From positions 1 through 36,654 of the forward strand of contig JAJYTC010000026.1 of NCBI GenBank assembly GCA_021793275.1: DNA of 36,654 nucleotides, in the 5' to 3' direction. Positions 33,266 to 36,332 of this stretch are shown piece after piece. A model generated the notes under the pieces. The model was not told where the DNA came from. It searched no databases and was given only the letters and a program-made list of their open reading frames with translations. Position 1 is the first letter of the stretch. The number at the start of each line of letters is the position of its first letter. Source of the DNA: Deltaproteobacteria bacterium. Its GTDB lineage: Bacteria > Desulfobacterota > Syntrophobacteria > Syntrophobacterales > Syntrophobacteraceae. The position numbers were made by a program, and so were the translations under genes.

Positions 33266-33976
33266 TTATTGCGGGCTCCAGAAGGGGCCCGCCTTCCCCA
33301 GCCTTTTTAACGATAAGAACAATTCATCACCGTATTCTTTTACTCGCGCGAGGTAGTCCGGATCCAGCCGTCTTTTCATCAGAGGGCCGCTGAATACGAG
33401 TGCCCAATCAGCCAGCGCCATGATCGACTCGGCTGAGACGGGATCATAGACAGGCCAGTTTTTAACGTGTTCTTCCGACCGGAAGAGATTCATGCGGGCT
33501 CAAGCCTTCCCCCAGGAAACTTCTCCCGTCAAAGCCTTGGCTAACGGGATATTCATGTGCCCTACGGTCGTGGTCGGGTTGATTTCGAGGATGTCCTCAT
33601 CACGCATCCGGACATGGATGGGTTGCCCACAATCCAGGCATTGAGCCTCGATTCGGATTTCACTGCCGGGGAAGAGCCAGCGCACGGCCAGCACCTCGAT
33701 ACCTCATTGTCCGTACCATTTTTGTTTTCCGTCGACAGTCACCCGATAATGGGTAGGCACATTAGAAAACGGCGCCCAGGACTCCACGTAATCTGTGTCT
33801 TTGACAAACCAGCAGGCAAGGGAAGATTCGGCTGCCTTATGCTGTACCTGCCTTGCTTCTTCCGGGGGAAGGCCGAGAATTGCCGAAAGTTCGGTATAGT
33901 GCGGCGCTCGCCCGGTCTTCACAAAATGCTCGACAACAGCGGTGTAAGCTCGTTGTACCAGATCGGAATCATGCAT
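33266..33976 (-). CDS. MerB-like (organomercurial lyase family) protein with two candidate selenocysteines
   Basis: One frame of 236 codons, broken only by two TGA codons at 33704-33706 (codon 91) and 33500-33502 (codon 159). Read through as Sec, it gives a full MerB-type protein: an N-terminal winged-helix-like domain (LVQRAYTAVVEHFVKTGRAPHYTELSAILGL, residues 6-36), PTHYRVTVDGKQKWYGQ-U91-GIEVLAVRWLFPG, AQC113LDC116GQPI, then GKA-U159-ARMNLFRSEEHVKNW and SGPLMKRRLDPDYLARVKEYG. In E. coli plasmid MerB the residues at these places are Cys96, Asp99 (here Glu94), Cys117 and Cys159; the Trp 15 residues after Cys159 is also kept. MerB cleaves carbon-mercury bonds with those two cysteines. Start: ATG with GGAGG seven bases upstream. 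Both TGAs have SECIS-like hairpins. The real substrate is unknown; no merA or merR is nearby. Confidence 0.8.
33471..33486 (-). promoter_or_regulatory. Strong bacterial SECIS-like hairpin for the second TGA (codon 159)
   Basis: UCUUCC (+14 to +19 after the UGA) pairs perfectly with GGAAGA (+24 to +29), closing a four-base loop GGUC at +20 to +23. The E. coli fdhF SECIS presents the same GGUC loop to SelB at a similar distance. The hairpin lies inside coding sequence, as bacterial SECIS elements do. Confidence 0.8.
33671..33697 (-). promoter_or_regulatory. Candidate bacterial SECIS for the first TGA (codon 91)
   Basis: In the mRNA, positions +7 to +33 after the UGA can fold: GAGG (+7 to +10) with CUUC (+30 to +33), and GGCC (+15 to +18) with GGCU (+26 to +29), leaving a 7-base apical loop GUGCGCU from +19. 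The loop begins with G-U at a distance usual for bacterial SECIS elements. The lower stem is offset by a 4-base bulge, so it is weaker than the second element. Confidence 0.5.
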
Positions 33977-34053
33977 AGCGTTGCCTCCAATGCCGGTAGG
34001 ATAGTGTTGGATTCAATGCAGGAGACTTCGATCAGCTTCAGTTCGCTGCGGGA

Positions 34054-34364: not shown

Positions 34365-36332
34365 ATGAGATACGCAGAGACAGGGTATAATCTGGAAATC
34401 GATTTGGCTACGGGGCACATCGAACGGGTAGAAACCGACCCGAAATTGATGGAATTGCATCTCGGAGGTCTTGGCACGGACGTTAAATTAATGTGGGACA
34501 GGGTTCCACCCGAGACTCATGCATTCGACCCCGAGAACCTGCTGATATTCAGCAGCGGTCTTTTATGCGGCACCCCCGCTTATAGCGCCAACAGGACTAC
34601 CGTTACCACTATTTCTCCCCAGACGGGCTTGATGGCATACCCGATGATGGGAGGGTTCTGGTCGCCGGAATTGAAGTACGCCGGCTATGACAAGGTGGTC
34701 ATCCGCAACAAGTCTCCCAAGCTTGTCTACATCTGGATCCACAATGACAAAGTGGAGATACGCGACGCTTCCCATTTGAAAGGCAAAGGCGCTGTTGAAA
34801 CCCAGGAACTCATAAGAGCGGAACTCAATCAGCCCAAAGCCCAGGTTTCCGCCATCGGCCTGGCCGGTGAGAACCGTGTCTTCTTTGCATCCATCGAACA
34901 GTCAAGGGCCAGCGCCAGCAGGCTTGGGTCCGGTGGGGTCATGGGAGATAAGGGGCTAAAAGCGATAGCCGTTCGCGGAACTAAGGATGTCCAGCTTGCC
35001 CATGGCGCCGAATTTATGTCTCATTGGAAGCAGTTGGATGCATTTGTAAGACACCGGAATGCAAATCCCCTGCCCAAAAAACTCATCATGGATATTCACA
35101 CCGGTGTCGGCTCGCCTCAGGCCATGAAGCATGTTAATGAGAAATGGCATACCGAGGGGTTCTCCTGGGGAAATGCCCGGTACCGAAGAAAGGACTTTTG
35201 GACCGAGGAGATCGAGAGCAGTTGGACAAAGACCCAGGCAAAAGCCATAAAGCGGTTCATAAGCTGCTTTAATTGTCCGCAGCAGTGCGGCGCATTGATT
35301 TCCTACGAGGATGTCCCTCCTTACATGGCCAAATGCTATTCCAAGCTCTCCTATCTCATCGGGGCCGGTGTTGACGACCAGGCCTTTACGTGGAGAATCC
35401 TTGAGCGCGCTTTTGAATATGGCCTGGACTCCTTTTCGACCCCTCAGGTATTGGCCTTCGCGGTAGAACTCCATGAGGCCGGCATTTTGACCGACAAGGA
35501 TTTTGAAGGTTGTCCGACCGATAAGGAAGGAAGGTTCTTCTGGCTGCTGGATCGAATTGCGCGACGGGAAGGAATCGGGGATATCCTGGCCGAAGGCGCC
35601 TATTGGGCTGCCAGAAAAATTGGCAATGGCGCGGAGAAATTCGACCACAACACCATAAAAAAACATGAACAGATGAATGTGAAGCTGGGCATGCTCGATC
35701 CTCTTTACTTCCTGATGTTTTCAACAAACGAGAAGGTGAGCATTACGCAAATCGAAGGCAATTGGCCCCAGTCGCCGTTTGCCTCCAGAGAGGACCGGGA
35801 AGAATGGGTCAAAGACTGGATTCAGCTTCCGGATGAAAAGTTCAAACAATACTTCCTTGACTGGGAACCGCGCGGAGAAAAAAGCTTTCCATACTATCCC
35901 ACCCCGGAAATCGCCTCGGAAATCGTCGATTGGATGGAGATGCTGCACAATATCGATGACGCTCTTGGTTTGTGCGCCGGCATGGGATCGTTTTGCTTGA
36001 AACCCGCCTATCACATTCACAACTATCCCGGATTTATTTCAGCCGCGACCGGGATGGATCTGGATGAAGACGGATTAAAGAAGATAGTCAACCGCAACCG
36101 GAACCTGCATAGGGCCTTCAATAACAGAAGAGGCATGACCAGGGCGGATGAAAAGCCCCCTGAAGATCATTGGAGGCACAGATTCCCCGAACTCGAAGAA
36201 AAGCTCCTGTCCACCTACTATGAGTTCAAGGGATGGAACCATGACGGCGTGCCCACTCGCAAACGGCTGGAGGAGCTCGATTTAGCTTACGTGGCCGACG
36301 ACCTGGAGAAAAGAGGCGTGCTCAAAGATTAA
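34365..36332 (+). CDS. BamB-like tungsten oxidoreductase (aldehyde:ferredoxin oxidoreductase family)
   Basis: A 655-residue member of the AOR family, close in length and N-terminus (MRYAETGYNLEIDLATG) to BamB, the tungsten-pterin catalytic subunit of class II benzoyl-CoA reductase. The AOR N-domain spans about residues 1-205 (LHLGGLGTDVKLMWDR, TISPQTGLMAYPMMGGFW, SRLGSGGVMGDKGLKAIAVRG). The iron-sulfur ligands begin with CFNCPQQC (Cys301, 304, 308), and a late DDALGLC supplies the likely fourth. Such enzymes bind a W-bis-pterin and one 4Fe-4S cluster and do low-potential two-electron chemistry in anaerobes. No other bam subunit is in the window, so benzoyl-CoA as substrate is unproven; other acyl-CoAs or aldehydes are possible. 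Start: ATG at 34365, with ATG at 34362 as the alternative. Confidence 0.85.
   Translation: MRYAETGYNLEIDLATGHIERVETDPKLMELHLGGLGTDVKLMWDRVPPETHAFDPENLLIFSSGLLCGTPAYSANRTTVTTISPQTGLMAYPMMGGFWSPELKYAGYDKVVIRNKSPKLVYIWIHNDKVEIRDASHLKGKGAVETQELIRAELNQPKAQVSAIGLAGENRVFFASIEQSRASASRLGSGGVMGDKGLKAIAVRGTKDVQLAHGAEFMSHWKQLDAFVRHRNANPLPKKLIMDIHTGVGSPQAMKHVNEKWHTEGFSWGNARYRRKDFWTEEIESSWTKTQAKAIKRFISCFNCPQQCGALISYEDVPPYMAKCYSKLSYLIGAGVDDQAFTWRILERAFEYGLDSFSTPQVLAFAVELHEAGILTDKDFEGCPTDKEGRFFWLLDRIARREGIGDILAEGAYWAARKIGNGAEKFDHNTIKKHEQMNVKLGMLDPLYFLMFSTNEKVSITQIEGNWPQSPFASREDREEWVKDWIQLPDEKFKQYFLDWEPRGEKSFPYYPTPEIASEIVDWMEMLHNIDDALGLCAGMGSFCLKPAYHIHNYPGFISAATGMDLDEDGLKKIVNRNRNLHRAFNNRRGMTRADEKPPEDHWRHRFPELEEKLLSTYYEFKGWNHDGVPTRKRLEELDLAYVADDLEKRGVLKD

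Follow-up and report, generated by a model that had tools for sequence, protein, structure and literature searches.

A reading frame interrupted by two in-frame UGA codons

The window analysed here, that is the whole 36,654 nucleotide stretch of contig JAJYTC010000026.1 from a Deltaproteobacteria bacterium of the family Syntrophobacteraceae, contains on its minus strand a region in which three short frames follow one another. An earlier note made from the letters alone had proposed that these frames are a single gene split by two TGA codons, and read-through translation bore this out. With TGA read as selenocysteine (Sec) one frame of 236 amino acids runs from ATG to TAA (33976-33266, minus strand) and its sole internal stops are the TGAs at codon 91 (33706-33704) and codon 159 (33502-33500). 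We agree with the same note that standard annotation would give three fragments, as gene callers would split the gene at the UGAs. The features of the locus are as follows.

33266..33976, minus strand: coding sequence of a putative double-selenoprotein, 236 amino acids plus TAA, with Sec91 and Sec159 (translation, MerB Pfam match, relatives and dN/dS)
33984..33988, minus strand: Shine-Dalgarno sequence GGAGG, 7 nt 5' of the ATG (direct sequence reading)
33704..33706, minus strand: first in-frame UGA, predicted Sec91, corresponding to MerB Cys96 (translation and alignment)
33695..33697, minus strand: Glu94 codon, corresponding to MerB Asp99, the proposed proton donor (alignment)
33676..33692, minus strand: SECIS-like hairpin 1 (GCUGGC, loop CGUGC, GCUGGC), at nt 15-31 counted from the first UGA, with a lower stem at nt 10-12/34-36 (covariation, synonymous constraint and consensus fold)
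33500..33502, minus strand: second in-frame UGA, predicted Sec159, corresponding to MerB Cys159 (translation and alignment)
33471..33486, minus strand: SECIS-like hairpin 2 (UCUUCC, loop GGUC, GGAAGA), at nt 17-32 counted from the second UGA (covariation, synonymous constraint and consensus fold)

A scan for promoters and terminators around the gene returned nothing above chance. Its downstream neighbour encodes a SPOR-domain protein, and an aldehyde:ferredoxin oxidoreductase (AFOR) gene with AFOR_N and AFOR_C domains (34365-36332, plus strand) lies divergently about 390 bases from its start. The AFOR gene is not conserved beside the double-UGA gene at other loci and we judged both neighbours to be unrelated to it. 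A comparison of the neighbours at 16 loci for an operon clue found nothing in common except the double-UGA gene itself, and its conservation is therefore not due to a conserved neighbourhood.

Conservation of both UGA codons and purifying selection

A sequence search of the source genome and its relatives returned 13 full-length copies, and a profile built mostly from these found approximately 28 copies among 395 genomes spread over the phylum. Further relatives are present in Desulforhabdus sp. TSK, whose gene is 83% identical, in a Desulfarculales MAG and in a MAG labelled Nitrospirae. Within the full-length members collected from many assemblies both columns are UGA in 37/37 and Cys in 0/37. 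The source genome itself carries a paralogue on a different contig that is 41% identical and likewise has two TGAs. The full-length double-UGA members group together in the tree as a single clade (SH-aLRT 99), in separate parts of which the window's gene and its own-genome paralogue are found. Two or three double-UGA paralogues, often of different subclades, occur in each of six genomes (G136, G130, G191, G003, G004 and G000). No relative of the gene was found on viral contigs, and plasmids yielded distant ordinary MerB only.

Compared with close relatives, all three segments (codons 1-90, 92-158 and 160 to the end) have a dN/dS of approximately 0.07-0.2, from which it follows that the segments after both UGAs are translated and under selection. 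Same-clade copies that do not have both TGAs are all truncated, frameshifted or fragmentary (L020, L022, L026, L034, L082, L083 and L116). Four of these, L022 (G009), L026 (G007), L082 (G414) and L083 (G427), are decayed or frameshifted remnants that contrast with the intact copies.

The view that the locus is a pseudogene, an assembly error or a chance arrangement in which the UGAs are true stops can draw on the three fragments seen by standard annotation and on the true remnants of the clade in those four genomes. We regard it as very improbable, since the same UGA positions recur in 37 sequences and the own-genome paralogue, purifying selection extends downstream of both, and hairpins with synonymous constraint (described below) accompany them; the remnants for their part have lost their integrity through truncation and frameshift rather than solely through stops at codons 91 and 159. 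The earlier note had argued that two such TGAs are very unlikely to stem from random decay. This is upheld by pieces that are conserved together at loci sharing no other gene, as well as by the invariant UGA pair, and a sequencing error, which the note had raised, is excluded by the identical UGAs in many assemblies and in the own-genome paralogue. What looks like a broken gene is in fact intact, a bacterial gene that is widely conserved.

SECIS-like hairpins downstream of both UGA codons

Downstream of each UGA a conserved hairpin lies at the distance expected of a SECIS. Single-sequence folding z-scores of the two hairpins were not significant and for that reason we used comparative evidence only; a search of Rfam gave no match for either. 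Across the clade hairpin 1 has the loops GGUCU (17 sequences), CGUGC (8, the window's gene among them), AGUCU (4) or similar, and its GGUCU loop and spacing resemble those of the E. coli fdhF SECIS. Hairpin 2 has the clade-wide form CUCUUCC-GGUC-GGAAGAG with the loop GGUC in 31/33. For hairpin 1 pairing is maintained in 100% of cells, with double compensatory changes at one pair, and for hairpin 2 in 97.7%, with double compensatory changes at three pairs. Sliding the partner strand as a control destroyed the pairing in both, and consensus folding without a given structure also predicted both.

Synonymous codon identity exceeds expectation by 0.45 and 0.52 at the hairpin codons as against 0.05 elsewhere, and none of approximately 200 other blocks exceeds 0.29. 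Hairpin 2 is the site of the strongest synonymous constraint in the gene, and a peak lies at hairpin 1 too. The Arg at +7 from the second UGA is encoded by CGG in 31/31. The comparative case for hairpin 2 as a SECIS-like element is strong. For hairpin 1 covariation alone makes a modest case, coming from one pair, and the synonymous constraint bears more of the weight.

Selenocysteine machinery and decoding

Of the genes whose presence the earlier note had suggested checking, selA, selB and selC are in the source genome. SelA scores 618 bits and the tRNA-Sec scores 74 bits with the covariance model and has the anticodon UCA according to ARAGORN. SelB is found in two parts, with the N-terminal portion at one contig's end (C166) and the C-terminal portion at the beginning of another (C90), which we take as one gene broken by the assembly. 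The carriers examined also have selA.

A genome-wide reassignment of UGA, for instance to Trp, in place of local recoding would equally leave the frame open with UGA as a residue, which is the only support for it. The selA and tRNA-Sec genes speak against it, as do the paralogue (L002) and two further members (L013 and L018) that terminate at UGA and the relatives in which both positions are Cys and not Trp; we consider the probability of reassignment to be negligible. The search for homologues with U or Cys at positions 91 and 159 gave UGA at both codons within the clade and Cys in more distant MerB relatives. The double-selenocysteine reading of the earlier note is thus supported by the UGA pair in 37/37, the hairpins, the selection and the presence of selA, selB and selC, about as firmly as sequence data by themselves permit, and on this comparative evidence both UGAs are almost certainly decoded as selenocysteine.

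Homology to MerB and the predicted active site

The translated protein matches the Pfam MerB family (PF03243) with 71.3 bits and an E-value of 9.5e-20 against a curated cut-off of 27. The HMMER profile alignment places Sec91 on Cys96, Glu94 on Asp99 and Sec159 on Cys159 of MerB, confirming a register that had been drawn by eye (codon 91 as Cys96 with an acidic residue at +3, codon 159 as Cys159). Glu94 is invariant in the clade alignment (A1). Glu at the Asp99 place is also seen in Cys/Cys relatives (L085, L087, L088, L030 and others) and in the Cys/Sec protein L086, and so marks a broader group. The models for canonical MerB, NF033555 and NF009710, score 28-32 bits, well below their cut-offs of 200 and 193.

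An AlphaFold model with Sec modelled as Cys has a mean pLDDT of 88.9 and the MerB fold. Its only strong matches in the PDB are MerB and MerB2 (Foldseek E-values down to 4e-9), with a VIA Z of 16.3 against MerB2 and 15.3 against MerB. As judged from the alignment, the clade keeps the active-site arrangement of MerB with a predicted Sec, Glu, Sec.

Association with hgcA and near absence of MerA

In order to place the gene in its genomic setting we looked at hgcA, the mercury-methylation gene. It is above the cut-off in 17/23 genomes with a full-length copy and in 97/372 others (odds ratio 8, p 5e-6), and in 19/26 carriers when genomes with fragmentary copies are included. Stratifying by family, a test that covered only genomes appearing in the search listing, gave p 0.014, or 0.005 with broken hgcA genes counted. 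Six of the 23 carriers lack hgcA above the cut-off, and in two of the six it is present but broken across contigs. Within the window's genus hgcA occurs in 5/5 carriers vs 4/6 others, which is not significant alone, and one carrier of another family (G047) has no hgcA. With selA found in 355/395 genomes of the phylum, and so nearly universal, a capacity for Sec use does not account for the association; some of it may reflect relatedness and lifestyle.

The double-UGA gene and hgcA do not lie next to each other; in G327 they are approximately 3.5 Mb apart on one contig. Among the HgcA frames of carriers none of the intact ones that we read ended in CU, giving no sign of Sec there, and in some HgcA loci the read-through translation continued beyond what is probably a normal UGA stop.

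MerA is over the cut-off in 2/29 carriers, the source genome not being one of them. Some MerB genomes without MerA have been described, and the same large survey of mer genes saw no HgcAB in genomes encoding only MerB (PMC8261052); in light of the latter the association with hgcA would be new.

Proposed function and mechanism

We consider it likely from homology that the protein cleaves a carbon-metal bond, and reasonably probable that it is a double-Sec organomercurial lyase, probably for methylmercury, in anaerobes that are often mercury methylators. A lyase of this kind would plausibly protect anaerobes from methylmercury. That methylmercury is the natural substrate is a reasoned guess to which we would give somewhat less than an even chance. 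More tentatively still, the Sec/Sec lineage might represent an anaerobic methylmercury demethylase in methylators that undoes the product of HgcAB independently of MerA and has been missed by annotation and surveys.

In MerB either cysteine binds mercury while the other gives a proton to Asp99, which protonates the leaving carbon (PMC4525700). In the proposed protein SelB and tRNA-Sec would insert Sec at each UGA, which has its own SECIS hairpin; Sec91 and Sec159 would take the place of the mercury-binding Cys96 and Cys159, and Glu94 that of Asp99. By analogy with MerB, one selenolate would most likely capture R-Hg+ and the other would hand a proton to Glu94, which would protonate the carbon with release of R-H (methane in the case of methylmercury). 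Hg(II) would then be held on the Se/Se pair until a thiol, sulfide or selenide takes it off.

A number of points weigh against a lyase. Binding of Hg(II) by two Se ligands may be so tight as to stall turnover. Asp99 is replaced by Glu, and we found no test of Glu at this place in the literature. There is no conserved operon, 27/29 carriers are missing a MerA to take the Hg(II), and hgcA is below its cut-off or lacking in 6/23 carriers.

In a non-enzymatic role the MerB fold would serve as a selenium trap or chaperone for a soft metal such as Hg(II) or for methylmercury. A Se/Se site is expected to bind mercury extremely tightly, as is established chemistry, and with MerA missing there is no dedicated partner for unloading. 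An invariant acidic residue at the proton-donor place (Glu94) would however be superfluous for a mere trap, as would two costly Sec residues fixed in 37/37, and we regard this role as improbable.

A double-Sec lyase of MerB fold could alternatively act on another carbon-metal(loid) bond (As, Sn, Pb, Se or Te), as has been proposed for SaoL. The replacement of Asp99 by Glu would fit such a role, as would the lack of a mer operon context and the best NCBIfam similarity, which is to the proposed organometallic lyase SaoL (NF040728). The two or three paralogues in several genomes suggest specialised substrates, more than one in number, which also fits. The enrichment in hgcA genomes on the other hand points to mercury, and all of the solved structures that the model resembles are mercury lyases; we therefore hold another metal to be rather unlikely and retain the organomercurial lyase as the preferred reading.

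Novelty and significance

A review published in 2026 covers 119 families or subfamilies of prokaryotic selenoproteins, and SaoL, with its single Sec, is the sole MerB relative among them (PMC13188914). A Sec/Sec MerB is not in this inventory; an unlisted mention in two primary papers of 2023 and 2025 is possible. In NCBIfam as of June 2026 no model claims the double-UGA proteins. Within the inventory and NCBIfam the double-Sec clade is an undescribed selenium version of MerB, in which selenium is predicted to replace sulfur at the two mercury ligands of an established detoxification enzyme. To our knowledge a swap of sulfur for selenium at both ligands of one active site is rare.

The clade also illustrates a blind spot, in that gene callers would cut the gene into pieces and residue filters can discard homologues. 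At least one mercury survey drops merB homologues without Cys96, Asp99, Cys117 and Cys159, and as its filter demands these residues the double-Sec clade would be excluded even if not truncated (PMC12874090). With the gene recognised, the handling of methylmercury by methylating anaerobes becomes directly testable.

Comparison with known systems

The double-Sec clade resembles MerB (PF03243; PDB 1s6l, 3f0o and 3f2f; MerB2 5c17) in fold, in sequence profile and in having two chalcogen-ligand positions and an acidic position. Canonical MerB has the residues Cys96, Asp99 and Cys159 (and Cys117) (PMC8261052), and the clade also has Cys at the Cys117 place. It differs from MerB in its predicted Sec for Cys at both catalytic positions, its Glu for Asp99, its Ser or Ala at the Cys160 place, its low identity to the solved MerB structures (14-21%) and the absence of a MerA partner in 27/29 carriers.

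SaoL is likewise a MerB-superfamily selenoprotein with Sec at the Cys159 place and is present in the same bacterial family (L023-L025). Membership in SaoL was considered for the double-UGA protein and ruled out by score, motif and genome context. Four clade members score 48, 36, 43 and 41 bits with NF040728, for which the equivalog cut-off is 140, whereas the SaoL-type proteins L023 and L024 score 181 and 155 bits. SaoL retains Cys96 and Asp99, with a single Sec in the motif CU, while the clade has the motif AU, SU or TU plus a second Sec at position 91. SaoB, the marker of the SAO system, is found in 0/29 clade carriers vs 3/3 SaoL genomes. A further MerB-like protein, L027 (G090:C171), has Cys96 and Asp99 with UGA at the Cys159 place in the motif TU and not CU.

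The nearest relatives outside the double-Sec clade are the MerB-like proteins L085, L087, L088, L030 and L086, which share Glu at the Asp99 place and differ in having a longer C-terminal region and a Cys pair at the catalytic positions, or in L086 a Cys with Sec at 159. Two of them, from the sister group, are near-identical, with UGA in L086 (G397:C171) vs Cys in L088 (G363:C306) at the 159 place, and by their sequences represent what appears to be a fresh Sec/Cys exchange at this position. Lastly, a distant MerB-like frame, L115 (G390:C61, approximately 32.8-33.3 kb, minus strand), has UGA at both catalytic positions, the second followed by the same hairpin as in the clade (UUCUUCC-GGUC-GGAAGAA). 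Unlike the clade it keeps Asp99 and lies outside it on a long branch, and it possibly represents a separate origin of the Sec/Sec pair.
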